Positions 15,112 through 37,597 of a stretch of 44,280 nt of DNA are shown one piece after another (position 1 is the first letter of the stretch; every line of letters starts with the position of its first letter). The notes under the pieces were generated by a model. It ran no database searches. It saw nothing but the letters and a program-made list of their open reading frames with translations, and had not been told where the DNA came from. Source of the DNA: Centipeda flueggei ATCC 43531 (GTDB taxonomy: Bacteria; Bacillota; Negativicutes; Selenomonadales; Selenomonadaceae); contig NZ_GG694007.1 of NCBI RefSeq assembly GCF_000160695.1, positions 372,751-417,030 on the forward strand, read 5' to 3'. The translations under genes were made by a program, and so were the position numbers.

Positions 15112-15114
15112 GAT

Positions 15115-16698: not shown

Positions 16699-17805
16699 TT
16701 ATCCCCGCATCAGAGCTTCCTTATTCTCTGTCGGCGTTGTCGTTGGACGGCCGAGATCGTCGCGCGAGCCGATGGCGGTGCGCACCTCGAGGAAGGTGAG
16801 CACATCGCTCCTCTGCACGGCAGGGAGTACCTGCGCGAGTTCTGCCGCATCCGCCGCTGTCTGCACCAGGCGGTAGCCGACGGCACGCGCGACGGCGGGG
16901 AAGTCCACGGTATGTGCCGCTGTCGGCGCGCCGCCGACGCTCTCATGCGCCTCGTTGTTGAGGAGGACGTGCACGACATTCGGCGGAGCGGCGGCACCGA
17001 TGGTCGCCATCGCGCCCATGTGCATGAGGGCTGCCCCGTCTCCGTCAAGGATAAAGATGCGCTGTGACGGGCGGTGGAGGGCAATGCCGAGAGCAATCGC
17101 CCCCGCGTGCCCCATCGAGCCGACGGTGAGAAAGTCATGGGCGTGATCCTCGCCGCGTGCCGCGCGCAGCTCAAAGAGCTCACGTCCCGTCTTGCCCGTG
17201 GTCGCGACGACGACGGCGCCCTGTGCCGCATCGAGGATTTGCGCGATGGCATCCTCGCGCCGCAGGGGATTCCCATTTGCGTATTTGTGTTTCGGATGTG
17301 TGAGCGCCCCCTTTCGGACGAGGAGCGCGCATTGCCCGCCGGCAGCGAGATGCGGGCGCAGGTTTTCCATCCATGCGGCGACATCCTCTGCGCGCGACGC
17401 TTCCGTGAGCACCATCGTTTTGACGCCCATCGTCTCGAGGAGCGGCAGCGTGAGACGCCCCTGGACGAGATGCTGCGGCTCATCATGGAGATCCGGCTCG
17501 CCGCGCCAGCCGATGACAAAGATGCACGGGATGCCGTAGACCTCCTCGTGGAGGAGGGAGAGCAGGGGATTGACAATGTTGCCGAGCCCGCTGTTCTGCA
17601 GGTAGACGAGCGGCACCTTGCCCGCTGCGAGGTGATAGCCCGCCGCGAGTGCCGCCGCATTCCCCTCATTCGCCGCGATGATGTGCGACGGACTGTTCGC
17701 CCCATAGGTATCCATCAGGCAGTCGACGAGGGGGCGCAGCTTTGAGTCGGGCACGCCTGTGAAGAACTCCGCTCCGAGGGCGGTGATGAGATCGTTCGCG
17801 TTCAT
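16699..17805 (-). CDS. aepY: Phosphonopyruvate decarboxylase
   Basis: A thiamine-diphosphate enzyme that decarboxylates phosphonopyruvate to phosphonoacetaldehyde, the irreversible step that pulls the unfavourable PEP mutase reaction forward. The protein has 368 residues, normal size. The family pattern is clear: FFTGVPDSKLRPL at the N-terminus, NEGNAAALAAGYH, VYLQNSGLGNIVNPL, IGWRGEPDLHDEPQH, and the ThDP site LDGDGAALMHMGAMATIG with LLNNEAHESVGGAPT. The ATG at 17805 overlaps the stop of the preceding array gene (ATGA) and has AAGGAG upstream, so the two are translationally coupled. It is the last gene of the string. The N-terminal extension to 17835 is not used. Confidence 0.95.
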   Translation of the reverse strand: MNANDLITALGAEFFTGVPDSKLRPLVDCLMDTYGANSPSHIIAANEGNAAALAAGYHLAAGKVPLVYLQNSGLGNIVNPLLSLLHEEVYGIPCIFVIGWRGEPDLHDEPQHLVQGRLTLPLLETMGVKTMVLTEASRAEDVAAWMENLRPHLAAGGQCALLVRKGALTHPKHKYANGNPLRREDAIAQILDAAQGAVVVATTGKTGRELFELRAARGEDHAHDFLTVGSMGHAGAIALGIALHRPSQRIFILDGDGAALMHMGAMATIGAAAPPNVVHVLLNNEAHESVGGAPTAAHTVDFPAVARAVGYRLVQTAADAAELAQVLPAVQRSDVLTFLEVRTAIGSRDDLGRPTTTPTENKEALMRG

Positions 17806-19973
17806 AGATGCTCCTTTGTACTGCTTCCAAACCACTCAGGTCTCGCCTCGCGCATCGCAGGCCAGAACTCCCCGTTGTTTGCGATCGCGCGGGCAATGCT
17901 GCGCGCACGCGGGTAGAAGAATGCGCGCAGTTCCGCGCTGTCGACGGCGCAGTCCTCCTCGAGCTCGTGGGTGCGCGGATAAATCCCCACACGCGCATCT
18001 GCAAAATTCACCGTACCGTCCTCGTCGACCTTCTCCTGCGTCTCAAGGCGCAGCGCAAAGTCATGGGTGCGTACGGCGAGCTTATACGTCTGTCCCGGGA
18101 ACATCGACATACTATATACAGCGTCGCGTTCTTTTCCGCCAAAGACCGCCGGCAGATTGCCGTCGATGTCTTCTGCCGCGGGGAAACCGCAGAGCGCACC
18201 GAGTGTCGGATAGAGATCCGCCGAGCTGGTCAGCTCGTCTACGATGCGCCCCTCGGGGACACCGGCACCGCGCATCATCCAGAGGGCACGCGTTGAGTTC
18301 TCGGCAATCACGTCCATCACGCCGTTCACGGGCGCGCTGAAGATCGAGTTGCCGTGGTCGGAGTAGACGCTGACGAGATATTCTTCCTCCGCGTAGTGCT
18401 CCTCGATGTAGGTGAGGAGCTGCGCCAGATTGCGGTCCACGCGGCGAAGACTCTGCCAGAACTGCTCCTGATAGATCTTGAGCTTGGGCAGGCGTACACT
18501 GGCGATATGCTCATCAGTATCAAACAGGCGCTCTGAGAGCGGCAAATGCGTTTCCACCGCAGGGTGAAATTTGAACCCCTTGGCATTCCACGGATGCACG
18601 TCCGCGACGTGCAGATGGAGGAACTGATCCGTCTCATCGAACGCCTCGAGCTGCATGATGGTGCGGTCAACTGCCTCAGCAGAGAGGAGCTTCCACCCAG
18701 TGGTATTCAGCTGATCGTAGCCGCGCAGTGTGCCGCTGTAGATGGGGTCCGCTGCCCCCATCGGGGCGGCGGCATAGTAGCCGAGATCCGTCATGCACTC
18801 CGAGAGGGTCATCATATCGAGCGGAAGTTCGTGGCTGTTCCTCTCGTTGAATACCTGTGTATGGATCGGATAGCGTCCCGTCTCGATCACGGGGAGGGAT
18901 GGATAGGTGCACTCCGATGTGGAGAAATGCTGGTCGAAGATCGTGCCGCGCGCGAAGAAGTGTGCGATGTTCGGCATCGCATCGGGAAAGTGCGTGCGCG
19001 CGATATTCCACGCGAGCCCGTCGATGAGAATATTCAGCACGAGTTTTCGCCGCGCGGGGCTGTGCCCAAGGCGGATCGGCGTGCCGACAGCATAGACGGC
19101 ATCAGAGGCAGACGTGATCTCGGTCGTCTCCGTGAGGCGGAACTGACTGAACGCCCACTTGCCGAGATAGGCGGATGCCGGCGGCTGGGACTTGGATGCG
19201 ATGGTCAGCTCCTGCAGGGGCTCCGTCCCCGCGATGGGGAGAATGACCTCCGCCCCCTCCGGCACTTCGATCGTCACACGGCCGCGTACCTCTTGTGCCC
19301 TTTGCAGACAGAACGGGTAATCCCGCTGCATCCTATCGACGAAGACGTCGGTATGCCGCATTTTCTCGATCAGCTGACTTTGATCCGAGAGGAACGCATT
19401 ATCGACATAGGCAGCGACCCAGTAGCGTGCACTTCCCTCGGGCGGTGTGAGCGGGAGATACTCTCCTACGAAGGCGTCGAGCTGAAACTCCAGTACATGA
19501 TCTGCGCCTGCGAGGAAGGCGCGGTTCTGTGTCATCGGGGCACCTGTTCCGATGCCTGCGGCGATGGAGAGCCGGTCAAGACCGTCCTTTCCGCCGCGCA
19601 TGAGCAGCTCCATGGGAATCTCAGGGGAGAGATAGAGCCCATAGGCATATCCATACATCGTGAGTGCATCGACGGGACGATCCAGCCGGGCGTATGACTC
19701 GGCCAACAGCAGCCAGATCTCGCGGTTCACGGGGCGCTTTCGGTAGGCGCGTTCCGCGCATACCGCCGCATTCTCCGCATCCCCGTGATGGAGGAGATAC
19801 TTCGCCGCGAAGATATCCGCGCGCTCACTCGTGGGCGCTGCCTCCCGATAGGCGGCGAGCTGCATGAGAAAGTTGTCGTCGTAGGCATCCTGCTCCGACC
19901 GCGCGAGAAGATCATAAAAGAGCGCAGAAGCCTGTTCGTTGTTGTGCCAGAATACGCGGTTGTCTTCGTTCAT
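17802..19973 (-). CDS. Alkaline-phosphatase-fold protein S6 (sulfatase-like, Thr nucleophile), subgroup A2
   Basis: Sixth of six tandem paralogues, 723 residues. Residues 1-115 are helical and TPR-like (FFYDLLARSE-type repeats, KYLLHHGDAENAAVCAERA). About 150-290 is beta-rich and unassigned. From about 308 comes the sulfatase/phosphatase core: LVLNILIDG with a metal-binding Asp, TYPSLPVIETGRYP with Thr356 where sulfatases have Cys, LHVADVHPW, VYSDHG, and SADLYPTLGALCGFP near the end. No signal peptide or membrane helix is seen. It is closest to S4. The start follows the S5 stop by one base (TGAgATG) with GGAG upstream, and its stop overlaps aepY. Phospho- or phosphonotransfer is inferred from fold and context; the acceptor is unknown. 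Confidence 0.85.
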   Translation of the reverse strand: MNEDNRVFWHNNEQASALFYDLLARSEQDAYDDNFLMQLAAYREAAPTSERADIFAAKYLLHHGDAENAAVCAERAYRKRPVNREIWLLLAESYARLDRPVDALTMYGYAYGLYLSPEIPMELLMRGGKDGLDRLSIAAGIGTGAPMTQNRAFLAGADHVLEFQLDAFVGEYLPLTPPEGSARYWVAAYVDNAFLSDQSQLIEKMRHTDVFVDRMQRDYPFCLQRAQEVRGRVTIEVPEGAEVILPIAGTEPLQELTIASKSQPPASAYLGKWAFSQFRLTETTEITSASDAVYAVGTPIRLGHSPARRKLVLNILIDGLAWNIARTHFPDAMPNIAHFFARGTIFDQHFSTSECTYPSLPVIETGRYPIHTQVFNERNSHELPLDMMTLSECMTDLGYYAAAPMGAADPIYSGTLRGYDQLNTTGWKLLSAEAVDRTIMQLEAFDETDQFLHLHVADVHPWNAKGFKFHPAVETHLPLSERLFDTDEHIASVRLPKLKIYQEQFWQSLRRVDRNLAQLLTYIEEHYAEEEYLVSVYSDHGNSIFSAPVNGVMDVIAENSTRALWMMRGAGVPEGRIVDELTSSADLYPTLGALCGFPAAEDIDGNLPAVFGGKERDAVYSMSMFPGQTYKLAVRTHDFALRLETQEKVDEDGTVNFADARVGIYPRTHELEEDCAVDSAELRAFFYPRARSIARAIANNGEFWPAMREARPEWFGSSTKEHL

Positions 19974-19974
19974 C

Positions 19975-22101
19975 TCATGACTCCTTCAGCGGAGAGAATG
20001 TCTCCCCGTTGCTTGCGATTCCCCTTAGAAAATCCCGCGCGCGCGGGTAGAAAAATGCGCGCAGGGCTGGGTCGTCGATTTCATATCCTCTTTCCCGCTC
20101 GTGCTCACGCGGATAGATGGCGACGTTTGCTCGAGCGAGATCGACGGTGCCGTCGGTGTGGACCGGTTCCTCTGTTTCGAGGCAGAGCGTATGCGATGCC
20201 GAGCGTACCGCGAGAAAGTACGGTTTGCCGGGGTAGAGGGAGTTGCTGAATGAAACATCCCGTCCTGAGCCGCCCAATACGCGCGGGAGTACGCCGTCCA
20301 CATCGGCATCGCCGGGGAAACCCAGCAGATGCGCTATCGTCGGATGGATGTCTGCCGTGCTGGTCAATTCCTCGGTGATAACCCCCTCGGGAATGCCCGC
20401 ACCGCGCATCATCCATGCCGTATGGGTCAGCGGGCTGTCCACGATGTAGGGCGTTGGGCTGAAGATGGAGACGCCATGGTCGGAGTAGAGGTTTACGAGG
20501 TACTCCTCCGGCGCATAGTGTTCCTCCAGATAGGAAAACAGTGTGCCAAGAGCCCGATCCGTACTGCGCACCCCATAGCGGAACGATGCCTGATTGATGG
20601 GGCTCGGACGGAGATAGGGGCTATGCGGCGCGTGAATCTCATCCGTCATACGTGCGGCAAGCGGCAGCGAGGCCTGCACTGTGGCTGCCTGCTGAAAGAG
20701 CGGCGCAGGCCATGGGTGGGCATCTGCCGTGTGAAAATAGATGAAGTGATCTGCGTCGGGCATGCCGTCCAGATGACGGATGATGCGCTCTGTCCCCTCG
20801 TAGGCAGGCGTACGGTACATCGCGGCGATGAGGCGATCATAGCCGCGCATGCACCCGTCGTACAGCCCCATGCCGAACCCCATCAGCTGTGCCGTTGCAT
20901 AGCCGTGATCCCGTGCACGCTCCGAGATCGTTGCGATGTCAGGGGACAGCGCAACGGGAATCTTGTCGTGGAACATCTTGCTGTGGTGTGGATAGAGCCC
21001 GGTCTCGATGGTCGCCAGCGACGGATAGGTGTATTCGGAGGCAGAGAATTGCTGATTGAAGATCAGTCCGCGCGCGAAAAAGCGTGCTGTCTGCGGCATC
21101 ATCTCTGCGAAGCAGCTGCCGACGATCTCCCAGGGGAGCGCATCGACGAGGATGTTCAGTACCAGACGACGGCGTCTCGGATGATGCCCAATCTGGATCG
21201 GGGGGCCGACGAGAAACGCATGATCTGAGGAGAAGTCGGTCGTCTCACGAAGCCGATAGAAATTGGGCGTGGCAACATTCAGCCAGCCGGGCTCGTCGAC
21301 CGATGCGGAGCGCACGTGGATCTGCTGTGGCTGGCACACGCCGACAGCGGGGAGCACGGTGCCGATGATGGGGAGGACGACCTCCTGTCCGGGAGCAAGC
21401 TCGATATGTGCTGCACCGGGGGCACGCTGCGCGCGCATCAGATCAAAGACAAAGTCTCCTGCGGCGAAGTAACCGACGCCCTGTGCATCACGAATGTTCT
21501 TCAGCTGCCATGCCTTATCGCCCTGCTGCCCTTGCTCCGCGTGGACACCGACATAGTAGGCGCAGTGGTGATTTTGGGATGCGGGGAGAAACTCGCCGGC
21601 AAAGAGCCCGTCCATCGTGGTGATGCCCGCCTCTGGATCATAGGACGCGCGTGTGGCGAGCGGCACGAACGAAGGATGAGACAGGACGACGGACAGGCGG
21701 TCAAGTGCCTCCTGCGTGATCGCTTCATGCGGGTAGTCATCCACCGCGATTGGCACATCGGTGAGCCGGTTGGTGTAGCCCTGCATGAGGAGTGCGTCAG
21801 CATAGCGGCCGAGCGCCTTGCAGGCACGCGCGAGCACCTCGAAGATCGGCGCTTGGAGCGGGCGCAGACGAAAGGCGCGTTCCGCGCAGATAACGGCGTT
21901 CTCTGCATCTCCATTCGTGAGAAGATACTGCGCCGCGAAGATGTCGGCGTGTGCCGCATCCCCTCCCGCCTCGCGGTACGCGGCGAGCTGCATGAGAAAG
22001 TCGTCGTCGTAGGCGTCCTGCTCCGCGCGTGCGAGGAGATCGTAAAAGAGCGCAGAAGCCCGCTCGTTGTTGTGCCAGAATGTGCTGAAATCGTCGCTCA
22101 T
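19975..22101 (-). CDS. Alkaline-phosphatase-fold protein S5, subgroup B
   Basis: Fifth of the six paralogues, 708 residues. Same plan as the others: TPR-like N-terminus (here the subgroup B version REAGGDAAHADIFAAQYLL), beta-rich middle, then the catalytic core with LVLNILVDALPW, TYPSLATIETGLYP (Thr358), FHTADAHPWP, LYSDHGVSIF and TADIHPTIAHLLGFP. The C-terminus (ASNGETFSPLKES) differs from subgroup A, which ends NNGEFWPAMR-ARP-WFG. It is most like S2. The start is set at 22101 by comparison with S2 and S4, which begin ATGAGCGAC after a similar AAGAGATAT leader. An ATG directly before it (22104) is also possible. Soluble, cytoplasmic by appearance. Confidence 0.84.
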   Translation of the reverse strand: MSDDFSTFWHNNERASALFYDLLARAEQDAYDDDFLMQLAAYREAGGDAAHADIFAAQYLLTNGDAENAVICAERAFRLRPLQAPIFEVLARACKALGRYADALLMQGYTNRLTDVPIAVDDYPHEAITQEALDRLSVVLSHPSFVPLATRASYDPEAGITTMDGLFAGEFLPASQNHHCAYYVGVHAEQGQQGDKAWQLKNIRDAQGVGYFAAGDFVFDLMRAQRAPGAAHIELAPGQEVVLPIIGTVLPAVGVCQPQQIHVRSASVDEPGWLNVATPNFYRLRETTDFSSDHAFLVGPPIQIGHHPRRRRLVLNILVDALPWEIVGSCFAEMMPQTARFFARGLIFNQQFSASEYTYPSLATIETGLYPHHSKMFHDKIPVALSPDIATISERARDHGYATAQLMGFGMGLYDGCMRGYDRLIAAMYRTPAYEGTERIIRHLDGMPDADHFIYFHTADAHPWPAPLFQQAATVQASLPLAARMTDEIHAPHSPYLRPSPINQASFRYGVRSTDRALGTLFSYLEEHYAPEEYLVNLYSDHGVSIFSPTPYIVDSPLTHTAWMMRGAGIPEGVITEELTSTADIHPTIAHLLGFPGDADVDGVLPRVLGGSGRDVSFSNSLYPGKPYFLAVRSASHTLCLETEEPVHTDGTVDLARANVAIYPREHERERGYEIDDPALRAFFYPRARDFLRGIASNGETFSPLKES

Positions 22102-22118
22102 CATATCTCTTTTCTTTG

Positions 22119-24266
22119 TTAGGGTTGTCCACCGAACCACGTGGGGCGTGCGGCGCGCATGGCGGGCCAGAACTCCCCGTTGTTCGCGATCTCACGGACG
22201 AAGTCACGGGCACGCGGGCAGAAGAATGCCCGCAGCTCCGCACTGTCCACGACATAGTTTTCATCGAGCTCATGGCCGCGGGGATAGATCCCCACACGCG
22301 CATCTGCGAAATCCACCGTACCGTCCTCATCGACTTTTTCCTGCGTCTCAAGGCGCAGCGCATGGTCGTGGGTGCGCACGGCGAGCTTATAGGTCTGTCC
22401 CGGGAACATCGACATACTATATACAGCATCGCGTTCTTTTCCGCCAAAGACCGCCGGCAGATTGCCGTCGATGTCCTCTGCCACGGGGAAGGTGCAGAGC
22501 GTCCCGAGCGTCGGATAGAGATCTGCCGAGCTGGTCAGCTCGCTTACGATGTGTCCCTCGGGGACACCCGCACCGCGCATCATCCATACGGCGTGCGTCG
22601 CATTTTCGGCGATGACGTCCACACTGCCTTTTACAGGCATGGTAAATACCGAATTCCCATGATCGGAGTAGAGACTGACGAGGATATCGCGTTCGTCAAA
22701 GTGCGCCTCAATGTAGGAGAACAGATAACCGAGGTGGCGGTCAACACAGGAAAGGCTGCGCCAAAAATGATCCTGATAGACGGGCAGCTGCGCCAGATGC
22801 ACACCCGTCACATTTTCATCCACCTCAAAAACGCGCTGTGTCAGTGGGAGGTGGGTTTCTGTCGCCGGGTAGAACTTGAACCCCTTGGGGTTCCATGGGT
22901 GAACATCTGCTGTGTGCAGGTAGAGGAACTGATCTGTCTCGTTAAATGCCTCGATCTGGCGGATGGTACGTTCCGCCATATCGGCACTTGGCTGCGTCCA
23001 TGGCGTTACGTTGAGCGTCCGATAGCCGCGCATGGCCCCGCTGTAGATGCAGTCCGCTGCACCCAGCGGTGCGGCGGTATAGTAGCCGAGATCCGCCATC
23101 GACTCCGAGAGCGTCTTGATGTCGAGGGGCAGTTCGTGACTATCGTTCTCGTTAAATACCTGCGTATGCGCCGGATAACGTCCCGTCTCGATGGTCGGCA
23201 AAGAGGGATATGTGAATTCCGATACGGAGAAATGCTGATCAAAGATCGTGCCGCGTGCAAAGAAACGGGCGGTATTCGGCATACATTCGGCAAAACATGC
23301 ACGGATGACGCCCCAGGAAAGTCCATCGACGAGGATGTTCAGCACGAGCTTTCGCCGTGCGGGGCTGTGTCCCAGTGGGATGGGTGTGCCGATGGCGTAA
23401 GGGCGGTCATCTGCGGGGGTGATGTGCGCGGATCCCTCCAGACGAAAAAGACTGAACGCCCATTTTCCAAGGTACAGCGGATGGGAGGCTCCTGCATTTG
23501 TGATGGTCAGCTTTTGCAGATGGCTTGTGCCCGCGATGGGAACGATGGCGGTTGTTTCTGCCGGAATCTGTATCTCCGATGGACCGCGCACCTCCTCCGC
23601 CTGCTGCAGCTGGAACGAAGCGGCGCGGTAGCCGTATGTGCTGAATGCATCCGTATGGCGGTTGTGGTCAAGCATGATGCCCTGGTCGGAGAGATAGTAG
23701 TCCGTATAGGATGCCGCCCAAAACCTGGAGTAATGCGGCGGCATGGTGAGAGGGAGCGGCTCGCCGATGAAAAGATCCGTAGAGAACTGGAGTCCCTGTC
23801 CTCTGATGACCGCGCGCACCTTTGCCAGGGGAGCACCCTTGCCCATGCCCAGCGCAATCGACAGACGCCCCAACCCCTCGCGGAGCTGATCCTCGTCGAG
23901 GTGAAAGGAGAACTGCGGCGCACCGTAGAGACCATAAGCGTATCCCTGCATGATGAGCGCGTCGATCGGGCGGTTCAGTCGTGCATAGAGATCGGCCAGC
24001 AGCAGCCAAACTTCGTAGTTGACGGGGCGCTTGCGGTAGGCACGCTCTGCGCAGACCGCCGCATTCTCCGCATCCCCGTGATGGAGCAGGTACTTCGCCG
24101 CGAAGATATCCGCGCGCTCACTCGTGGGCTCTGCCTCCCGATAGGCGGCGAGCTGCGCGAGAAAGTCGTCGTCGTAGGCACCACGCTCTGCTCGCGCAAG
24201 GAGGTCGTAAAAGAGCGCAGATGCCCGCTCGTTATTGCGCCAGAATATGCTGAAATTGTCGCTCAT
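22119..24266 (-). CDS. Alkaline-phosphatase-fold protein S4, subgroup A2
   Basis: Fourth paralogue, 715 residues. Counted positions: metal-site Asp314 in LNILVDGLSW, predicted nucleophile Thr352 in TYPSLPTIETGRYP, His451 and His456 in LHTADVHPW, and Asp535-His536 in YSDHG. These match the metal and nucleophile positions of the alkaline phosphatase superfamily. The mid-region GTIFDQHFSVSEFTYPSL is the element that leads into the nucleophile. It is closest to S6 in the catalytic half, but its last residues (ARPTWFGGQP) match S1, which points to gene conversion. The start has AAGGAAAGAG upstream. A long open frame on the opposite strand is a codon-bias shadow. Confidence 0.85.
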   Translation of the reverse strand: MSDNFSIFWRNNERASALFYDLLARAERGAYDDDFLAQLAAYREAEPTSERADIFAAKYLLHHGDAENAAVCAERAYRKRPVNYEVWLLLADLYARLNRPIDALIMQGYAYGLYGAPQFSFHLDEDQLREGLGRLSIALGMGKGAPLAKVRAVIRGQGLQFSTDLFIGEPLPLTMPPHYSRFWAASYTDYYLSDQGIMLDHNRHTDAFSTYGYRAASFQLQQAEEVRGPSEIQIPAETTAIVPIAGTSHLQKLTITNAGASHPLYLGKWAFSLFRLEGSAHITPADDRPYAIGTPIPLGHSPARRKLVLNILVDGLSWGVIRACFAECMPNTARFFARGTIFDQHFSVSEFTYPSLPTIETGRYPAHTQVFNENDSHELPLDIKTLSESMADLGYYTAAPLGAADCIYSGAMRGYRTLNVTPWTQPSADMAERTIRQIEAFNETDQFLYLHTADVHPWNPKGFKFYPATETHLPLTQRVFEVDENVTGVHLAQLPVYQDHFWRSLSCVDRHLGYLFSYIEAHFDERDILVSLYSDHGNSVFTMPVKGSVDVIAENATHAVWMMRGAGVPEGHIVSELTSSADLYPTLGTLCTFPVAEDIDGNLPAVFGGKERDAVYSMSMFPGQTYKLAVRTHDHALRLETQEKVDEDGTVDFADARVGIYPRGHELDENYVVDSAELRAFFCPRARDFVREIANNGEFWPAMRAARPTWFGGQP

Positions 24267-24296
24267 CGTATCTCTTTCCTTTTTCGGTTGCGCTTT

Positions 24297-26450: not shown

Positions 26451-26451
26451 C

Positions 26452-28557: not shown

Positions 28558-28573
28558 AATATCTCTTTTCCTT

Positions 28574-30730
28574 TTAGAGCTGTCCGCCGAACCACGTGGG
28601 GCGTGCAGCACGCATCGCGGGCCAGAACTCCCCGTTGTTTGCGATCTCGCGGACGAAGTCACGGGCACGCGGATAGAAGAATTTCCGCAGATCCGCACTA
28701 TCCTCAGCATAGTTCTCATCGAGCTCATGGCCGCGCGGGTAGATCCCCACACGTGCATCGGTGAAATCCACCGTGCCGTCCTCGTCGAGCACTTCACGCG
28801 TCTCCAGACGAAGTACGTGCCCGTGGTTTCGCACGGCGAGCTTATACGTCTGCCCCGGGAACATTGACATGCTGTATGCTGCGTCGCGGACTGTACCCCC
28901 GAAGACGGCGGGAAGACGGCCGTCAATATCGTCATTGACAGGGAATCCGCAGAGGTGCCCCAGGGTCGGATAGATGTCCACCGTACTCGTGAGGTCGTGG
29001 ACGATGCGTCCCTCAGGCACACCTGCACCGCGCATCATCCACGCGGCGCAGGTAGAATTCTCTGAGATGACGTCCACCGCGCCAGTGTTATTGCGGTTGA
29101 AAATGGAAACTCCGTGATCCGAGTATAGATTGACAAGATACTCATCCTCGTTAAAATGCTGCTCCAGATAGGAAAGCAGCTGCCCAAGATTGCGGTCAAC
29201 CTGCCTGATCCGTTCCAGATATTGCTCCTGATGGATGTATAGACTTGGGAGACGCACGGCGGCGGCAGGCGCTTTTTGGTTGAAGATGCGCTCTGCGAGC
29301 GGAATGTGCGTCTCAACCGCCGTGTCAAACTTAAAATCAAGGGCATCGTATGGGTGCGCGTCATTGATGTGCAGGAAGAGAAACAGATCGGCCTCGTCGA
29401 ATGCCGTGAGATGTCGAATGGCCGAGTCCACGGCATTGACGGAGTTCAGTGTCCAGCCGGTGGCGATCAGACGGTCGAAACCGCGCATTACGCCATGGGA
29501 AACACCATGGGTGGAGGCAAGTGGTGCAGCACAGTAGTAGCCCTGTGCCTTCATCTGCTCGGCTATTGTCGTCATGTGGAGCGGGAGCTCATAGCCTGCC
29601 TTCTCGTTGAAGATCTGTGTATGATGCGGATAGTATCCTGTCTCAATGGCGGGATGCGCCGGCAGGGTGTACTCCGAGGTCGAAAAATGTTGGTCGAAGA
29701 TGACTCCGCGTGAAAAGAAACGCATGACGTTCGGCAGATGTGTCGCTGCATAGGAGCGTGCAGCCGCCCAGGACAGGCCATCGACGAAGAGGTTCAGGAC
29801 GAGCTTTCTCCGCTGCGGGTCGTGTCCGAGGCGGATCGGTGTTCCAACGGCATAAGGAGCATCCTCGGAGGCGTGCAGTGTGGCACTCTCACTGAAACGG
29901 AAGAAGCTGAATGCCCATTTACCGAGATAGGCTTCCTTTATTCCGAGGGACTCCGTCGTTACGGAGAGCGGCTGATTGATGACCGTCCCTGCGATGGGGA
30001 GGATCGCCTCCTCCCCTGGAGGGAGCTCGATCTTCGCCGTCCCGCGTACCTCTGTCGCCTTCTGCAGGTCAAAGAGGAAATCGCGGTGTCCGTAGCCGAT
30101 GAACGATTCCTGATGGCGCAGACCCTCCATCAGGCGGCTGTGGTCTGACAGAAACGCATTTTCCGTATAGACGGCACTCCAAAACCGTGCACTGCCGGCG
30201 GGCATAGTGAGCGGGAGTGCCTCACCAAGAAAGACGTCATGGCGGAAACAGAGTGCACCGTTTTCCACATAGGCACGACTTTCCGATGTGGGTGCATACA
30301 GGCTGTGCCCTAGCGCAATGGTGAGACGTCCCAGTCCCTCCTGCAGATTGGACGGTGTCAGGCTCAGTGCAAGTTTCGGTGCTTGGTAAAGCCCGTAGGC
30401 AAGTCCCTGCATATCGATAGAATCCATCTCGCGGTAGAGGGCTTTGTAGGCAACGGCGAGGATCTTCCAGATCTCGTAGTTGAGCGGACGTTTTTCGCGG
30501 GCACGTTCCGCGCAGACCGCCGCATTCTCCGCGTCACCGTGATGGAGGAGATACTTCGCCGCAAAGATATCCGCGCGCTCACTCGTGGGCGCTTCCTCCC
30601 GATACGCGGCGAGCTGCATGAGAAAGGCGTCGTCGTAGGCATCCTGCTCCGACCGTGCGAGGAGATCACAGAAGAGCCCCTGGGCGTGTGCATCGTTGCG
30701 CCAGAATATGCTGAAATCGTCGTCCTGCAT
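28574..30730 (-). CDS. Alkaline-phosphatase-fold protein S1, subgroup A1
   Basis: First gene of the array, 718 residues. Core motifs: LVLNLFVDGLSW, TLPAHPAIETGYYPHHT (Thr355), LHINDAHPYD, LYSDHGVSIF, VDIYPTLGHLCGFP. The N-terminal 110 residues carry the shared TPR-like segment, and its DNA is almost identical to S3, S4 and S6 around KYLLHHGDAENAAVCAERA. It is closest to S3 in the core, but its end (ARPTWFGGQL) matches S4. The gene begins 41 bases after the AEP transaminase stop with a GAAAGGGA ribosome site. No signal peptide, lipobox or membrane helix. Likely a cytoplasmic transferase or hydrolase of phosphonate or phosphate esters; the substrate is not known. Confidence 0.85.
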   Translation of the reverse strand: MQDDDFSIFWRNDAHAQGLFCDLLARSEQDAYDDAFLMQLAAYREEAPTSERADIFAAKYLLHHGDAENAAVCAERAREKRPLNYEIWKILAVAYKALYREMDSIDMQGLAYGLYQAPKLALSLTPSNLQEGLGRLTIALGHSLYAPTSESRAYVENGALCFRHDVFLGEALPLTMPAGSARFWSAVYTENAFLSDHSRLMEGLRHQESFIGYGHRDFLFDLQKATEVRGTAKIELPPGEEAILPIAGTVINQPLSVTTESLGIKEAYLGKWAFSFFRFSESATLHASEDAPYAVGTPIRLGHDPQRRKLVLNLFVDGLSWAAARSYAATHLPNVMRFFSRGVIFDQHFSTSEYTLPAHPAIETGYYPHHTQIFNEKAGYELPLHMTTIAEQMKAQGYYCAAPLASTHGVSHGVMRGFDRLIATGWTLNSVNAVDSAIRHLTAFDEADLFLFLHINDAHPYDALDFKFDTAVETHIPLAERIFNQKAPAAAVRLPSLYIHQEQYLERIRQVDRNLGQLLSYLEQHFNEDEYLVNLYSDHGVSIFNRNNTGAVDVISENSTCAAWMMRGAGVPEGRIVHDLTSTVDIYPTLGHLCGFPVNDDIDGRLPAVFGGTVRDAAYSMSMFPGQTYKLAVRNHGHVLRLETREVLDEDGTVDFTDARVGIYPRGHELDENYAEDSADLRKFFYPRARDFVREIANNGEFWPAMRAARPTWFGGQL

Positions 30731-30771
30731 GGTGGGTCCCTTTCCTCAAAGCCGCGATAGGGCTCCTGTTG

Positions 30772-31866
30772 CTATGCGTTCAGTGCTTCCTCGAATACGC
30801 GGAAGAACGCCGCGATGTCGGGCGCATCGATCGCGCCGAGTGCACACAGGCGGAAGGTCGATGCCGTCTGCATCTTGCCGGGATAGATGGTGTAGCCGCG
30901 TTCGTAGCAGTAGTCGTGCACACGGGTAAAATCAAAGTCCGCCGACGGATAGTTGACGGCGACGACGAGTCCTGACTGGATCGCGCGCGGGATGGTCTCG
31001 GTGAGCCCCAGACGGGCGATTCCCTCGTGGATGGCGTTGATCGTACGCGTATGGCGTGCCCATTTCTTCGCCTCTCCCTCGGCGAAGTATTCGGCGAGGG
31101 CGCGCTTTGCCGCGTATACGGTCTGCACGGGCGGGGTAAAGCGCATTTCGCCCGTCTCCTCGAAGCCCTCGTACTGCATGACGAGGTTCGTATAGTAGGA
31201 GCGCACGGGGTAGTCCTTTGCCGCTGTGAGCAGAGATTTCTTGGCGATGACGAAGGAGAGCCCCGTCATCCCCTGGATACCCTTCTGCGCCGAGGACATG
31301 CAGACGTCGATGTTCATCTCGTCGGCGGAGAAGGGGATCATGGCATAGGTCGAGATGGTATCGGCGATCATGACCGCGCCATGCGCGTGGGCGAGCGCAC
31401 CGATCTCGCGTACGGGGTTCAGGATGCCCGTGCCTGTCTCCTGATGCGTCGTGTAGACGGCGGCGATGTCGGTGTTCTCTGCGAGCGTGCTCTCCACCGC
31501 ATCGAGGTCGGGCAGACCGTCCGCCGGGAAGGTCAGGTTGATGTGCGGCACGGAGTAGGCGCGTGCGACGGCTGCCGCGCGTGCGGAGTAGGCGCCGTTG
31601 TTGATGATGAGGAGTCTTTTCCCCGCGGGGACGAGCGAGCTGACGCACGAATCAATGCAGAGCGTGCCCGACCCACAGAAGAGAACGGCCGCCCAGTCCG
31701 CCGCATCGGCGTGGACGACCTTCAGGAGGTCGGTGCTGAGCTCGCGCATGAGTTGTCCAAATTCACGCTCACGCGGGCAGATGTCGGGGACGATCTGCGC
31801 CATCTTGACGGTGTCCGTCGTGGTCGCAGGTCCCGGGTTGAGGAGGACGTTGCGCTGGATGTTCAT
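30772..31866 (-). CDS. phnW: 2-aminoethylphosphonate:pyruvate transaminase-like enzyme
   Basis: A PLP enzyme of aminotransferase class V, 364 residues. In this context it should work in the biosynthetic direction, converting phosphonoacetaldehyde to 2-aminoethylphosphonate. Features: N-terminal LLNPGPATTTDTVKMA as in PhnW, FCGSGTLCIDSCVSSL for phosphate binding, IADTISTYA with the pyridine-binding Asp169, and MSSAQKGIQGMTG with the Schiff-base Lys195. The amino donor cannot be told. It starts three bases after the methyltransferase stop with GGGAG upstream. Closely related class V enzymes (alanine-glyoxylate type) cannot be excluded by eye, but the PEP mutase and decarboxylase neighbours make this the natural reading. 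Confidence 0.88.
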   Translation of the reverse strand: MNIQRNVLLNPGPATTTDTVKMAQIVPDICPREREFGQLMRELSTDLLKVVHADAADWAAVLFCGSGTLCIDSCVSSLVPAGKRLLIINNGAYSARAAAVARAYSVPHINLTFPADGLPDLDAVESTLAENTDIAAVYTTHQETGTGILNPVREIGALAHAHGAVMIADTISTYAMIPFSADEMNIDVCMSSAQKGIQGMTGLSFVIAKKSLLTAAKDYPVRSYYTNLVMQYEGFEETGEMRFTPPVQTVYAAKRALAEYFAEGEAKKWARHTRTINAIHEGIARLGLTETIPRAIQSGLVVAVNYPSADFDFTRVHDYCYERGYTIYPGKMQTASTFRLCALGAIDAPDIAAFFRVFEEALNA

Positions 31867-31869
31867 GGT

Positions 31870-32577
31870 TTACTCCCGATACATAAAGCAGTGAAAGACG
31901 AACGCGTTGTTCCAGTATCCCTTGAGCTCCATGGAAGGAAATGCGATGCGCAGTCCATGTGCCGATGCGTAGTCGGTAAAGAGGCTGTGTGTGTAGAAGT
32001 GCCGCTGCAGATCCTTATACAGCTCGTCGTAGTTGGGAATATTTGCCCGACGGAAGGCAAGGTAGTCTTCGCGTTTTTCAATGTCGTGCAGCCCCATGAT
32101 GCCGATGGCGCCGCGGCTCTTTTCCCGCATGAGGTCGAGGACATGGACGGCGTAGTCGTCACTGGGGAAATAGGGGAATACGCCGCTGGCAAAGATGGCG
32201 TCGTATTTCTGATCGACGGCGATGGCGTCTGCCTCGCCGGCGTATAACTCTACCGGGGATGAGAGCACCGCACGTGCGGTCTCGATGAGCCCCTCGGCGT
32301 AGTCCGTTCCGCCGACGGTCATCCCATCGCGCTGCATCAGATAGAGGTTTGCACCTGTCCCGCAGCCGACCTCAAAGACGCTGGAATCATTGGTGAGGCA
32401 GAGCAGTTCTTTCGTTTGTGCGTATTCGTCGAGGAAGGCATCCAGTGAGATGCCTTCCCCCATCACGTCGTAACCGTTGAGGCGCTTGAGTTCGAGGAAA
32501 GTGTCCTCCCAGTTCCCCGACAGCTTGCCCGTGCCGGGCTTTCTGCGGTTCCAAATCTCTCTCCATTTGTTGTCCAT
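31870..32577 (-). CDS. SAM-dependent methyltransferase 2 of the phosphonate string
   Basis: Class I (Rossmann) methyltransferase, 235 residues. The SAM loop is VFEVGCGTGANLYLMQ, followed by an acidic strand end (GGTDYAEGLIETA) and AIFASGVFPYFP as motif IV. It is a clear paralogue of the next gene upstream, with the same length and the same N-terminal MDNKW and C-terminal GYWNNAFVFHCFMYR. The two are six bases apart. The likely target is the amino group of AEP or an oxygen of the phosphonate group or glycan acceptor. The placement between the PEP mutase and the AEP transaminase supports a phosphonate target, but the sequence itself does not name one. Confidence 0.8.
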   Translation of the reverse strand: MDNKWREIWNRRKPGTGKLSGNWEDTFLELKRLNGYDVMGEGISLDAFLDEYAQTKELLCLTNDSSVFEVGCGTGANLYLMQRDGMTVGGTDYAEGLIETARAVLSSPVELYAGEADAIAVDQKYDAIFASGVFPYFPSDDYAVHVLDLMREKSRGAIGIMGLHDIEKREDYLAFRRANIPNYDELYKDLQRHFYTHSLFTDYASAHGLRIAFPSMELKGYWNNAFVFHCFMYRE

Positions 32578-32583
32578 GGCGAC

Positions 32584-33291
32584 CTACTTTCGATACAGAA
32601 ATACGTTAAAGACGAACGGTGTATTCCAGTACCCTTCCATCTCGATGGCGGGGTACTCGATCCTGAGGTTGTGCGAACGGGCAAAGTCCGCGAAGAAGCT
32701 GCGGCGGTAGAAGAGCTTGCTGAGTCCTTTGTAGCGCTCGTCATAGTCGGGGATTGCCGCGCGGCGGTAGGCGAGGAAATCCTCTTTCTTCGCTGCGTCG
32801 TGCAGGTCGATGAGGCCAATCGCTCCCGCTGCCTTTTCGAGCATCCGCGTGAGCACGCGCTCCGCGAATGCCTCGTCAGGAAAGTAGGAGAAGACGCTGT
32901 TGGAGAGTGCCGCATCGTAGTTCAGCGTTGTGTCAAAGGCGTCTGCCTCGCCGCACGTGAGCTCCCGTGCCTCGGGAAGCACGCCGCGTGCCGCCTCGAC
33001 GAGAGCTGCAGAGTAGTCCGTGCCGCCGACGGCAATGCCGTCACGCTGCAGGAGATAGAGGTTCGCGCCCGCCCCGCAGCCGACGTCGAAGACACTCATC
33101 CCTGCTGTGAGGTGCAGCAGCTCCTTGATGCGCTGTGCCTGCATGAGGAGAGAATCGAGCGGTATGCCGCCGTCCATGACGTCGAAGCCGTTCATGCGCT
33201 TGAGCTCGAGGAAGATATCCTGCCAGCTGCCCGAGAGGGCAGCTTTGTTTGCGTGCCGTCGGTTCCAAACGTCTTTCCACTTGTTGTCCAT
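32584..33291 (-). CDS. SAM-dependent methyltransferase 1 of the phosphonate string
   Basis: Class I methyltransferase, 235 residues, paralogous to the following gene over its whole length. SAM loop VFDVGCGAGANLYLLQ, then GGTDYSAALVEAARG, and a motif IV equivalent ALSNSVFSYFPDEAF. The C-terminal part (GLIDLHDAAKKEDFLAYRR and YWNTPFVFNVFLYRK) is shared with its twin. This C-terminal half presumably forms the substrate pocket. Two copies could carry out successive methylations or act on different substrates. The gene starts 32 bases after the PEP mutase stop. No export signal, so it acts in the cytoplasm on a small molecule or a nucleotide-activated intermediate. Confidence 0.8.
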   Translation of the reverse strand: MDNKWKDVWNRRHANKAALSGSWQDIFLELKRMNGFDVMDGGIPLDSLLMQAQRIKELLHLTAGMSVFDVGCGAGANLYLLQRDGIAVGGTDYSAALVEAARGVLPEARELTCGEADAFDTTLNYDAALSNSVFSYFPDEAFAERVLTRMLEKAAGAIGLIDLHDAAKKEDFLAYRRAAIPDYDERYKGLSKLFYRRSFFADFARSHNLRIEYPAIEMEGYWNTPFVFNVFLYRK

Positions 33292-33323
33292 GTGACCTTC
33301 CTTCCATACAGATGACGCAGCGC

Positions 33324-34619
33324 TCAGACGACCTCGATCAGTCGGATGATGTCCTTGATCGGCAGGAGCTCCTTGTCGATCTCGTGGGCGCGGTGATGGA
33401 CGAGGATGGAGCGTGCCGCATTCTCCATAGAGGGGAATGCCGCGCGCGTGAGCTGGTTGGCGTAGATGACGATGCGGACGCCATGTGCCGAGAGTTCCGC
33501 CTCCGTGATCGTGTTGTAGGAGGAGGGGACGGCGACGATGGGGACGTCCGGGTGGCTCGCGTGGAAGGCGTCGCAGAACGCGATGACCTCATCGGGTGAT
33601 TTGGCGCGCGAGTGGATCATGATGGCGTCTGCACCCGCCGCGACGTACGCTTCGGCGCGTGCGAGGGCATCCTCCTGCCCCTTTTCGAGGATCAGGCTCT
33701 CGATGCGCGCGATGATCATGAACTCCTCCGTGCGCTGTGCCGATTTGCCTGCCGCGATCTTTTCGGAGAAATTTTCGATCGTGTCCTGCGTCTGCGCGAC
33801 CTCCGTGCCGAAGAGGGAGTTGCGCTTTGCGCCCGTCTTGTCCTCGACGATGACGGCGGAAACGCCGATGCGCTCAAGGGTGCGGACGTTGTAGGCGAAG
33901 TGTTCTGCCGTTCCGCCCGTGTCCATGTCGAGGATGATGGGTTTCGTCGTGACGTCCATGACCTCGTTGATGGTCTGGATGCGGTCGGAGAGGTCGACGA
34001 GCTCGATGTCGGGCTTGCCGCGTGAGGTCGAGTCACAGAGACTGGAGACCCACATGGCGTCGAACTGGTCGAGGCCGCCGTCATTCTCGACGATGGTTTT
34101 CTCCGCGATCAGTCCCGTGAGGCCGTTGTGCACCTCGATGGTCTTGACGATGGGGACAATATCGAGGAGACGGCGCAGACGGCCGCGGCGCGCCTCGGGC
34201 ATAGCGAGCTGCTCGCGCATCTGCCAGTCGATCTTGCGCACCTCGTCATTATAGGTATAGGATGGTTCGATCAGTTTTCCGCCGTAGCGCGCGAGCGCCG
34301 CGAGGACGTTCTTGCGGATGGCGGACTCAGGACCCTGCGCCCAGTTGCTCCCGTGGACGACGTAGTCGGGGCGCAGACGGTCCAGTACTTCGTCGTACAT
34401 GATGTGATCCTGTACGATGACCTCCGCGACCTCGGGCAGCTCGCTGAGCATCGCCATGCGCTCCTCGAGTGTCTTCGTCGGGAAGCGGTTGTAGCGCACC
34501 ATCTCCGCGTCGGAGAGGACGCCGACAGTGACGCGGCCGAGCTCTGCCGCCGCGCGCAGGAGGTTCTTGTGCCCCGCGTGGATGATGTCCGTGCAGAAGC
34601 AGGTGTAGACTTTCTTCAT
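33324..34619 (-). CDS. aepX: Phosphoenolpyruvate mutase with N-terminal nucleotidyltransferase domain
   Basis: PEP mutase rearranges phosphoenolpyruvate to phosphonopyruvate, making the C-P bond that starts nearly all phosphonate pathways. The protein has 431 residues in two parts. Residues 1-135 form a TagD/cytidylyltransferase-like domain with HAGH at 14-17 (the HxGH nucleotide site) and YNRFPTKTLEERM. Residues about 150-431 are the mutase, with SSLCDSTSRGKPD and the diagnostic EDKTGAKRNS at 259-268 (EDKxxxKxNS). The start at 34619 follows GAGGGAAAG. The frame continues upstream to 34712 without support. An 89-base gap with a short CCCCG/CGGGG hairpin separates it from the cytidylyltransferase gene. 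Confidence 0.94.
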   Translation of the reverse strand: MKKVYTCFCTDIIHAGHKNLLRAAAELGRVTVGVLSDAEMVRYNRFPTKTLEERMAMLSELPEVAEVIVQDHIMYDEVLDRLRPDYVVHGSNWAQGPESAIRKNVLAALARYGGKLIEPSYTYNDEVRKIDWQMREQLAMPEARRGRLRRLLDIVPIVKTIEVHNGLTGLIAEKTIVENDGGLDQFDAMWVSSLCDSTSRGKPDIELVDLSDRIQTINEVMDVTTKPIILDMDTGGTAEHFAYNVRTLERIGVSAVIVEDKTGAKRNSLFGTEVAQTQDTIENFSEKIAAGKSAQRTEEFMIIARIESLILEKGQEDALARAEAYVAAGADAIMIHSRAKSPDEVIAFCDAFHASHPDVPIVAVPSSYNTITEAELSAHGVRIVIYANQLTRAAFPSMENAARSILVHHRAHEIDKELLPIKDIIRLIEVV

Positions 34620-34708
34620 ATCTTTCCCTCTATTCCCTGATTTCGTTGGAGGAGTGTTTATGTGTGATCTGACGAGGCGTTTGCGTCGGACGTCCCCGCA
34701 GACGGGGC

Positions 34709-35428
34709 TCAATTATGTCTTATCCGCGCCTCCAGCGCCCGCAGATCCGCCACGGTGTCGATCTCCCACACGTCCTCGCGCGTGCACTCCCTGATATACA
34801 CATCGCATGTGTCGGGATTGTATTTCAAAATGATCTCGTCCCAGTAAAGCTGACGGTATCGTTCTTCGCGGTACATCGCATCCGCACAGGCCGCGAGCCG
34901 CCGCCCGTCCTCTGCCGTCCAGTAGGAGAGACCGAGCATCTGGTGACAGGGGTGTGAGCTCTCTGTAGCGATGTGCGTGATCCTCCCGTCGGCATCCGCG
35001 TCGAAACACCAGTCGTCCGTCGCTGCCACGGGGAAGGCGATGTAGTTCGTGCGCTCCTGTGTGGGCGTGATGATGGCGGGATGCGCGAGGTAGAGATCAC
35101 CCTCGATGACGTAGCTGTCCTCAAGCAGCCCTGCACGCCCCGCGAGCGCGATGGAGGATATGTTGTTTGCCGCCGCCCAGTCCGGATTGTCGAGAAAGGC
35201 GATGTGCGGGTACGCGTCCTTGAGCGTGTCAAGCGCCGCACCGCAATAGCCCCGTATTATAGTAATCGACGAAATCCCCGCCGCATTAAGCGCATCTAAA
35301 ATGGTTGCGATGATCGGCACGCCGTTCACGGGAACAAGCGGCTTCGGCAGGTGATCGGTCAGCGGTGTGAGCCGTGACCCGCGCCCGGCTGCGAGAATGA
35401 CGGCGCGCGTCACACGATGTGCATTCAT
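34709..35428 (-). CDS. LicC-like nucleotidyltransferase, probable CTP:2-aminoethylphosphonate cytidylyltransferase
   Basis: A GT-A-fold sugar-1-phosphate/choline-phosphate nucleotidyltransferase, 239 residues. The nucleotide-binding start AVILAAGRGSRLTPLTDHL and PKPLVPVNG with Lys29 are classic. VIEGDLYLAHP holds the metal-binding Asp. It resembles LicC and the cytidylyltransferase half of PntC, which activates AEP as CMP-AEP. Given PEP mutase, decarboxylase and transaminase in the same string, CMP-AEP is the most likely product; a nucleotide sugar is the alternative. The start ATG at 35428 shares a base with the trpS stop (TGATG), so expression is coupled to trpS. An upstream GTG at 35434 is less likely. 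Confidence 0.82.
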   Translation of the reverse strand: MNAHRVTRAVILAAGRGSRLTPLTDHLPKPLVPVNGVPIIATILDALNAAGISSITIIRGYCGAALDTLKDAYPHIAFLDNPDWAAANNISSIALAGRAGLLEDSYVIEGDLYLAHPAIITPTQERTNYIAFPVAATDDWCFDADADGRITHIATESSHPCHQMLGLSYWTAEDGRRLAACADAMYREERYRQLYWDEIILKYNPDTCDVYIRECTREDVWEIDTVADLRALEARIRHN

Positions 35429-36432
35429 CAGCACAGCCCCATTTTGCGTTTCGCCTTCGCAAGCGTCTTTTCGGCGATGTGTGCGGCGCGCTCTGCCCCC
35501 CGCGCAATCTCTGCGTCGAGGTACGCCTTATCCGTGAGCAGCTCCGCATAACGCTCGCGGATGGGGCGCAGCTCATCGGCGACGACCGTCCCGACGGCCG
35601 TCTTGAAGTCGCCGTAGCCCTTTCCTGCAAACTCCGCCGTGATCGCATCGTAGGATTTCCCCGTGATGGCAGAGTAGATCGTCATGAGATTGTTGATGCC
35701 GTCCTTGCCCTCGCGAAATGCGACCTCGGCATCACTGTCCGTGACGGCGGACTTGAATTTTTTGAGGATCGTCTTCTCATCGTCGAGGATGAAGATGGTC
35801 GCCTTGGCGTTCTCGTCGGACTTGCTCATTTTCGCCGTCGGCTCCGCGAGACTCATGACGCGCGCACCCGCCTTCGGGAAATAGCCCTCGGGCAGGCGGA
35901 ACGTCTCGCCGTAGACGTGGTTGAACCGCGCGGCGACGTTCCGCGTAAACTCAAGGTGCTGCGTCTGATCTGCCCCGACGGGCACGTAGTCCGCCTGATA
36001 GAGAAGAATATCGCCGGCCATGAGCGCCGGGTAGGTGAAGAGCCCCGCGTTGATGTCCTCGGGATGCTTCGCCGACTTGTCCTTGAACTGCGTCATGCGG
36101 CTGAGATCACCGAACGGGCTGAGACAGGAGAGCATCCATCCCATCTGCGCGTGTGCACTCACGTGGCTCTGGATAAAGACGAGACTCTCCTCCGGATCAA
36201 GTCCGCACGCGAGCAGGAGGGCAAACGCCGCGCGGCTTGCCTTTCGCCGCATCGCAGGCTCGTGATAGACGGTGAGCGCATGGAGATCGGCGACGAAGTA
36301 GTAGCAGTCGTATTCCTTCTGCAGCTGGCGCCAGTTTTTCACCGCGCCGAGATAGTTGCCGAGGGTGAATGTGCCGGTGGGCTGAATGCCGCTCAGGATG
36401 ATCCTGCGGCGGGCTGGATCGTTTTCGTTCAT
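35428..36432 (-). CDS. trpS: Tryptophanyl-tRNA synthetase
   Basis: Charges tRNA-Trp with tryptophan. The protein has 334 residues, class Ic. The HIGH-equivalent is GTFTLGNYLGAV near residue 22, and KMSKS is present in AKMSKSDENAK. QADYVPVGADQTQHLE is the usual tryptophan-site region. The start at 36432 has AAGGAAGGA seven bases upstream. The earlier in-frame ATG (36453) overlaps the leader. A TTGCTT-17-TATAAT promoter gives a leader of only about 30 bases, so no T-box fits. The gene heads the phosphonate string with an overlapping stop and start, so this promoter should feed the whole 20 kb unit. Confidence 0.96.
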   Translation of the reverse strand: MNENDPARRRIILSGIQPTGTFTLGNYLGAVKNWRQLQKEYDCYYFVADLHALTVYHEPAMRRKASRAAFALLLACGLDPEESLVFIQSHVSAHAQMGWMLSCLSPFGDLSRMTQFKDKSAKHPEDINAGLFTYPALMAGDILLYQADYVPVGADQTQHLEFTRNVAARFNHVYGETFRLPEGYFPKAGARVMSLAEPTAKMSKSDENAKATIFILDDEKTILKKFKSAVTDSDAEVAFREGKDGINNLMTIYSAITGKSYDAITAEFAGKGYGDFKTAVGTVVADELRPIRERYAELLTDKAYLDAEIARGAERAAHIAEKTLAKAKRKMGLC

Positions 36433-36467
36433 GGATATTCCTTCCTTATACACGTAGAATCTCTTTC

Positions 36468-36496: not shown

Positions 36497-36640
36497 AGCC
36501 GCGGAGCAATGAATTTCCCGTTAAGGAGATAGAAGATACGGAAATAATTTTATGCCCGTAACATTCGTTACAGAAAACGACTGCCAATACCCAGTAGAAT
36601 GACGTTGAGAATCGTTCTATAATCGACCAACGGAGGTGTT

Positions 36641-37414: not shown

Positions 37415-37448
37415 CGAAAAGCAGCGAGGATGCTTCGCTGCGCACATG

Positions 37449-37488
37449 GGCAGCGGTATGTCATATTGTGACGCACCGCTGCCTTTTT
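37449..37488 (+). terminator. Rho-independent terminator of the methyltransferase gene
   Basis: GGCAGCGGT (37449-37457) and ACCGCTGCC (37475-37483) form a perfect nine-base stem followed by TTTTT. Confidence 0.88.
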
Positions 37489-37502
37489 GCGTGAAAAATA
37501 CC

Positions 37503-37531
37503 TTGCCAAGAATCTTCCTCTCTGTTACAAT
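37503..37531 (+). promoter_or_regulatory. Promoter of nrdD
   Basis: TTGCCA (37503-37508), 17 bases, TACAAT (37526-37531). The -10 lies inside the upstream NrdR-like box. Confidence 0.7.
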
Positions 37532-37571
37532 ATCTTCCGTAGCAAAAAATGCGAACCACAAGATATAGTAT
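37525..37571 (+). promoter_or_regulatory. Pair of NrdR-like boxes upstream of nrdD
   Basis: CCACAAGATATAGTAT (37556-37571) matches the NrdR box pattern ACACAATATATAGTGT at 13 of 16 positions. TTACAATATCTTCCGT (37525-37540) matches at about 10 of 16. They start 31 bases apart, three helical turns, as expected for paired NrdR sites. Confidence 0.55.
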
Positions 37572-37597
37572 TATGTATGGATAAAGGAGCGAAATCT

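Follow-up and report, generated by a model that had tools for sequence, protein, structure and literature searches.

The window analysed here is the whole stretch of 44,280 nucleotides from Centipeda flueggei ATCC 43531 (contig NZ_GG694007.1, positions 372,751 to 417,030 of the forward strand). Its minus strand carries, at 16699-36453, a phosphonate gene unit in which six tandem PF00884 paralogues, called array proteins A1 to A6 below, stand together with trpS, a licC/pntC-like cytidylyltransferase gene, a fusion of a PF01467 domain with phosphoenolpyruvate (PEP) mutase, two methyltransferase genes, a 2-aminoethylphosphonate (AEP) transaminase gene and a phosphonopyruvate decarboxylase gene. 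From the upstream end, the genes are as follows:

35428..36453, minus strand: trpS, tryptophan--tRNA ligase (TIGR00233, 342.7 bits), at the upstream end of the unit and overlapping licC
34709..35434, minus strand: licC/pntC-like cytidylyltransferase (PF12804; Streptococcus pneumoniae LicC 1jyk, E 2.4e-31; Treponema denticola PntC 6pd1, E 8.4e-11)
33324..34619, minus strand: pepM, N-terminal PF01467 cytidylyltransferase domain fused to PEP mutase (TIGR02320, 389.7 bits, cut-off 319.55)
32584..33291, minus strand: mt2, S-adenosylmethionine (SAM) methyltransferase, putative N-methylation of AEP
31870..32577, minus strand: mt1, SAM methyltransferase
30772..31866, minus strand: AEP transaminase (TIGR03301, 421.8 bits, cut-off 360.8)
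28574..30730, minus strand: array protein A6, with tetratricopeptide repeat (TPR), beta domain and PF00884, candidate head-group transferase
26452..28557, minus strand: array protein A5
24297..26450, minus strand: array protein A4
22119..24266, minus strand: array protein A3
19975..22104, minus strand: array protein A2
17802..19973, minus strand: array protein A1
16699..17805, minus strand: ppd, phosphonopyruvate decarboxylase (TIGR03297, 438.6 bits, cut-off 312.5)

The original prediction had described a tightly spaced gene set on one strand, and every gene it named was found; the corrections are trpS, the PF01467 domain fused to PEP mutase and some over-long starts among the listed open reading frames (likely starts from the translations: pepM 34619, A5 28557, A4 26450, A2 22104 and ppd 17805). 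With the likely starts, adjacent genes are separated by gaps of 1-89 bases or overlap by 4-7 bases. Simple scans found no minus-strand terminator-like match in the gaps between the genes and one such match beyond ppd, at 16419-16403, a layout that fits a predicted single transcript from trpS to ppd. Because the copy in the unit is the sole trpS match in the genome, trpS is an ordinary housekeeping gene, and the idea that it belongs to the chemistry or serves as a self-resistance copy was dropped.

The proposal that the small enzymes lead from PEP to AEP held up, with PEP mutase, AEP transaminase and phosphonopyruvate decarboxylase each above its NCBIfam equivalog cut-off, and from these family assignments the three together would make AEP. 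The PEP mutase motif EDKTGAKRNS also agrees with the Ppm motif EDKxxxxxNS given in a passage of PMC6697681. There are two cytidylyltransferase domains in the unit, the PF01467 domain fused to PEP mutase and the LicC-like PF12804 enzyme, and by homology the LicC/PntC-like enzyme would convert the head group to its cytidine monophosphate (CMP) conjugate. We aligned 23 LicC rows and compared the position that corresponds, in the register of our own alignment, to S. pneumoniae LicC Asp105 and T. denticola PntC Glu104 (loci, genomes and contigs of the survey carry the prefixes L, G and C). All 12 rows from PEP mutase loci where neither choline kinase nor iron alcohol dehydrogenase was seen have Glu there, as does L054; Ser is found in eight choline-kinase rows, Asp in L072, likewise a choline-kinase locus, and His in L066, and the rows of a distant order treated below have Asp (L104), Ser (L112, L113) and His (L111). 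The second LicC copy of the same genome (L087) has Ser at this position. Because the window enzyme has Glu and the unit includes an AEP transaminase, CMP-AEP is likely the donor; the two methyltransferases, which probably N-methylate AEP, suggest that N-methylated forms may be made as well.

This arrangement resembles the Pnt pathway, as set out in part in PMC6697681 (2019), in PEP mutase, the decarboxylase, AEP transaminase, the LicC-like enzyme, the likely CMP-AEP donor and Glu at the Tde-PntC Glu104 position, and a PF12804 LicC-like enzyme lies next to ppm, as expected of a PntC. It differs, however, in its PF00884 neighbours and methyltransferases. In the relevant passages of that paper PntC makes CMP-AEP, the tailoring steps after PEP mutase are called enigmatic, the neighbours mentioned are LicD-like phosphotransferases or glycosyltransferases, and the transfer step is left open.

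All six array proteins scored above the curated cut-off in the PF00884 search that had been proposed (59.9-84.3 bits against 25), with a weaker match to PF01663 (nucleotide pyrophosphatase), and A2-A6 share 43-69% identity with A1. LicD (PF04991) gave no match in the six at E <= 0.001 and none in A6 at E <= 1. Residues D305, T343, D526 and H527 are common to all six (alignment numbering, with the A1 row lacking its first 13 residues), and D317, T355, D538 and H539 in A6 numbering are invariant in 45 of 45 aligned family rows; by analogy, D317 may be a metal-ligand Asp, T355 may occupy the nucleophile position and D538-H539 may form an Asp-His pair. One distant protein (L114), part of a wider set of 16, carries Ser at the Thr position and lacks the Asp-His pair. 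Formylglycine sulfatases carry the motif Cys/Ser-x-Pro-x-Arg, and the nucleophile region of all six, which reads T-Y/L-P-S/A without Arg, does not match it.

An AlphaFold2 model of A6 built with 45 family sequences (predicted local distance difference test score, pLDDT, 93.1; predicted template modelling score, pTM, 0.94) shows seven helices at the N-terminus, followed by a beta domain and a domain of the alkaline phosphatase type. Folded alone, the N-terminal part is a TPR whose top row is bacterial O-GlcNAc transferase (Z 15.9, 1.5 Å over 111), tied with many other TPR rows. In a search with a separate fold of the N-terminal 304 residues, the matching rows covered the TPR part, and the beta part (about 148-300 of A6) gave just a weak CBM61 row at E 6e-3. 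The six resemble one another most in the first 60 alignment columns, where pairwise identity averages 77%, and least in columns 120-300 (35-38%), which take in the last part of the TPR together with the beta domain; this divergence matches what would be expected of a region that meets different acceptors.

The catalytic domain of the model has its best structural match in choline sulfatase (Z 27.7, 3.4 Å over 358), with further matches to phosphonate monoester hydrolase (Z 24.9) and to YejM and NPP structures (about 24). That phosphonate monoester hydrolase and sulfatases, choline sulfatase included, are closest in sequence and fold, together with the PF01663 match, favors an alternative in which the array proteins work in the cytoplasm as phosphodiesterases or phosphonate monoester hydrolases, cleaving CMP-AEP or diesters of the head group for recycling or in a regulatory role, with transfer left to another enzyme. 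The known phosphonate monoester hydrolases and choline sulfatases hydrolyze with a nucleophile derived from Cys, whereas the array proteins have Thr along with TPR and beta domains. Hydrolysis would make it hard to explain why six diverged copies stand beside one synthesis pathway and why LicD is missing near the family in 6 of the 10 lic-like loci that lack PEP mutase, and we regard this alternative as unlikely.

No membrane segment and no hydrophobic or signal N-terminus was found in the six by hydropathy, a dedicated transmembrane predictor not being used (highest 19-residue value 0.94-1.57; first 40 residues <=0.35), and the proteins are apparently cytoplasmic and soluble. EptA, LtaS and PptA have a membrane-spanning N-terminus and a catalytic domain outside; the array proteins share with them the PF00884 fold, Thr at the nucleophile position and a proposed head-group transfer, but lack such an N-terminus, and their proposed donor is a cytoplasmic conjugate of CMP or cytidine diphosphate (CDP) rather than a phospholipid. 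The missing membrane segment also speaks against a lipid acceptor, which would mean that phosphonolipids or head-group glycolipids are made at the inner membrane face and which we hold to be quite improbable: CMP and CDP head groups are the donors of the Kennedy pathway, but TPR domains usually bind proteins, and glycosyltransferase genes are among the scanned neighbors in L050, L054, L059, L061 and L062. A LicD-type protein of Mycoplasma does use a glycolipid acceptor, according to a passage of PMC11982090.

We surveyed the neighborhoods of 133 family matches in 42 genomes, which form 64 clusters, taking as neighbors genes within 10 kb and as LicC a match of >= 90 bits. LicC and PEP mutase accompany 26 clusters, LicC only accompanies 10, and 28 have neither. 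As a control, 105 non-family PF00884 genes of the same genomes, chosen by eye among the matches listed and with rows overlapping the family left out, lay near LicC in three cases and near PEP mutase in none (Fisher p for family versus control 7e-16 for LicC and 2e-13 for PEP mutase, the genomes being related and 64 clusters being set against 105 genes, which are different counting units). PEP mutase was not selected by neighborhood, and of its 31 matches in the 42 family genomes, 26 have a family member within 10 kb.

The head groups implied by these loci are not all phosphonates. Among the LicC-only clusters, eight of ten have choline kinase beside or fused to LicC (L050-L053, L057, L059, L063, L079), with BCCT or EamA transporters in some, and the other two (L054, L055) have a LicC-aminotransferase fusion beside a homologue of mt2. 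The PEP mutase loci L066, L075, L077 and L078 suggest hydroxyethylphosphonate as the head group, because an iron alcohol dehydrogenase is present there while no AEP transaminase was seen in the stretch examined (L075 and L078 are short contigs). The head group probably varies by locus, being AEP at some, choline or a phosphoethanolamine-like group at others, and at others again probably hydroxyethylphosphonate. A family dedicated to phosphonates, as the original prediction had supposed, was therefore rejected: the family commonly occurs without phosphonate genes, with no PEP mutase match in 12 of the 42 family genomes and a choline- or phosphoethanolamine-type setting at 10 of the 36 LicC-linked clusters. 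These ten clusters support a wider claim, since the usual partner of the family is a cytidylyltransferase. In a tree of 56 members, 39 rows of which were labelled phosphonate, choline or phosphoethanolamine-like, there were at least six partner changes (quick method, with support from the Shimodaira-Hasegawa-like approximate likelihood ratio test, SH-aLRT, only), and mixed groups join L077 with L050/L051 (SH-aLRT 100) and L059 with L067/L068 (SH-aLRT 99). From these label changes and supported mixed groups, the family appears to have switched head groups repeatedly, always by way of a cytidylyltransferase.

The same neighborhood recurs in a distant order. Of five genomes matched in a phylum sample of 398, three were already known, one was weak (G391) and one came from another lineage (G596), in whose order the family is present in 5 of 146 genomes. 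In four of these five genomes the family sits with LicC, three times with choline kinase and once with PEP mutase: L104 has choline kinase, LicC and BCCT; in L112 and L113 a LicC-choline kinase fusion lies right beside the family gene; and in L111 two family genes accompany LicC, PEP mutase, decarboxylase and iron alcohol dehydrogenase. For L114 no clear partner was seen.

Within the class, we sampled 380 genomes at a family threshold of E <= 1e-10, with at most two scored candidates per genome and fuller match counts from separate searches. The family is present in 42 genomes, all in one group of family rank, PEP mutase in 46, and both in 30. Among the genus genomes of this sample the family occurs in 14 of 14 and PEP mutase in 13 of 14, and a family cluster with 3-7 matches stands beside PEP mutase in each of the 13 (some G134 matches being fragments of a broken copy), a recurrence of the array across the genus that is beyond chance. 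Named relatives with the family, at seven loci, are Selenomonas felix, S. massiliensis, S. noxia, S. infelix, two Selenomonas sp. strains and Centipeda periodontii; the nearest is S. felix, at 88% over the matched segment, and several named Selenomonas-type relatives are oral species. The one genus genome without PEP mutase is that of C. periodontii. At the same place it still carries trpS, then a truncated licC reduced to a short 5' stretch, then a single family gene (L047 10760-11005), which makes this locus a deletion remnant of the phosphonate operon rather than a counter-example. Three fragments at G134:C1:555960-557348 resemble one broken array copy, and array copies thus seem to be lost as well as gained.

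LicD was searched for genome-wide through its PF04991 domain. No PF04991 match was found in the window's genome at E <= 1e-5 or in 12 of the 13 PEP-mutase-bearing genus genomes, LicD is absent within 10 kb of 29 of 36 LicC-linked clusters (contig ends may account for some absences), and 17 of 26 PEP-mutase-linked clusters lie in genomes without any LicD match. The six array proteins had been proposed to use a CMP-activated head group, and they stand as good candidates for it, given that they adjoin a PntC/LicC-like enzyme, look cytoplasmic and occur in a genome without LicD; what did not survive is the exclusive link to phosphonates. They had also been called the only visible candidates, a statement limited to the window; genome-wide, the search covered LicD. 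A second lic-type locus of the same genome (L087 9167-13685; C8:680666-685184) comprises LicC, EamA, choline kinase and a PF04464-like (CDP-glycerol glycerophosphotransferase) gene, and the latter could also be a transferase.

Several observations weigh against a role of the family in head-group transfer. Of the 64 clusters, 28 have neither LicC nor PEP mutase nearby; some of these are contig ends (G131:C19), but among them the long copy on C8 and the copies of G099, G101, G270, G271, G272 and G274 are unexplained. No family gene was found in the 20 kb around the choline-type locus L087, and 16 of the 46 PEP mutase genomes lack the family. LicD lies within 10 kb of 7 of the 36 LicC-linked clusters (3 of the 26 that have PEP mutase and 4 of the 10 that lack it), and PEP mutase loci with no family member nearby have LicD within 10 kb in just 4 of 21 cases and within 16 kb in 6 of 21; split by locus type, the LicD counts weaken the case for replacement. 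The family is often where LicD might be, yet both coexist, and the counts do not show simple replacement. The LicC profile was built in part from family neighbors, and the surveyed genomes are related, their counts not being independent. The clusters without LicC and those with LicD nearby also favor a reading in which the array proteins make no use of an activated head group, either as EptA/LtaS-like enzymes with a phospholipid donor or as bystanders in shared glycan islands. PF00884 does include EptA/LtaS/PptA-type enzymes, but the array proteins have no transmembrane segment or signal peptide by hydropathy, the 105 other PF00884 genes listed from the same genomes are almost without such a neighborhood, and the close neighborhood recurs in the distant order; of the readings considered here, this is the one we credit least. 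A passage of PMC10434233 places PptA in the alkaline phosphatase superfamily.

We conclude that the family probably consists of cytoplasmic, CMP/CDP-dependent transferases of phospho- and phosphono-head groups, non-homologous counterparts of LicD, a reading whose activity, acceptor and product are deduced from sequence and gene context. In this unit, the active-site Thr of the array proteins would attack the phosphonate phosphorus in the cytoplasm, with CMP leaving, and the phosphonyl group would then be handed to an acceptor hydroxyl, for example on an envelope or flagellar glycan. The several diverged copies would probably serve different acceptors, and by lineage the family would be paired with activation of AEP, hydroxyethylphosphonate, choline or a phosphoethanolamine-like group. 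A flagellar acceptor is a guess; flagellin was considered as an array neighbor and set aside, since the three flagellin matches of the genome lie on C6 and at C8:1.00 Mb, away from the array. A broader proposal, whose chances we judge to be evenly balanced, is that these proteins are an undescribed class in the alkaline phosphatase superfamily, namely TPR-guided, cytoplasmic, nucleotide-dependent phospho/phosphono-transferases acting on glycoproteins or glycans, and that the Selenomonas arrays vary a phosphonate coat through different acceptors.

Additional features were seen around the unit and its relatives. A seventh family copy of the genome, with a longer N-terminus (863-872 aa), lies without partners at L088 9296-11887 on C8 and adjoins a frame resembling valyl-tRNA synthetase by eye; frames of about 800-1090 aa with family matches occur in 7 of 13 other genus genomes, three in a row in G133. 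Upstream of trpS, three minus-strand open reading frames at 36617-39430 of the window have no Pfam match at E <= 0.001. Directly downstream of the unit, on the other strand, 12958-16346 holds DUF5693 and polysaccharide pyruvyl transferase (CsaB-like) genes, a pair that also adjoins the family in L009, L010, L011, L013, L015 and L090. At L111 2671-5708, NeuB, a UDP-GlcNAc 2-epimerase-type gene and a CTP_transf_3 cytidylyltransferase stand beside the distant phosphonate locus; nonulosonic acid gene sets are often tied to flagellar or surface glycans. Plasmid relatives (18 records matched, all <30% identity and sulfatase-type) and viral structure relatives (7 matches at E <= 0.001, sulfatase/phosphodiesterase-type) were rejected.

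The Campylobacter O-methyl phosphoramidate (MeOPN) capsule loci are similar in layout, having a cytidylyltransferase, tandem methyltransferases and several modified-phosphate transferases; passages of PMC6429109 gave nothing on MeOPN transferases. The related loci also resemble the lic1 (LicABCD) phosphocholine pathway in having choline kinase, transporter and LicC beside the family, but the family is a TPR and alkaline phosphatase superfamily protein without PF04991, and many loci have no LicD nearby. In a passage of PMC10434233, phosphocholine transfer is by LicD with CDP-choline or by PptA, with a possible lipid donor, and the family would unite the fold of PptA with the donor type of LicD. 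We found no published description of the family in the open-licence PMC literature, which does not itself show that none is in print. Activation to CMP-AEP has been shown, and bacterial phosphonate capacity is thought mostly to decorate cell surfaces; the family gives specific, apparently soluble candidates for the transfer step that follows activation, and it could act as the transferase in choline loci where no LicD was found. If this is true, the hydrolases and lipid-dependent membrane transferases for which the superfamily is known would be joined by a nucleotide-dependent branch, and phosphonate decoration would be predicted in Selenomonas.

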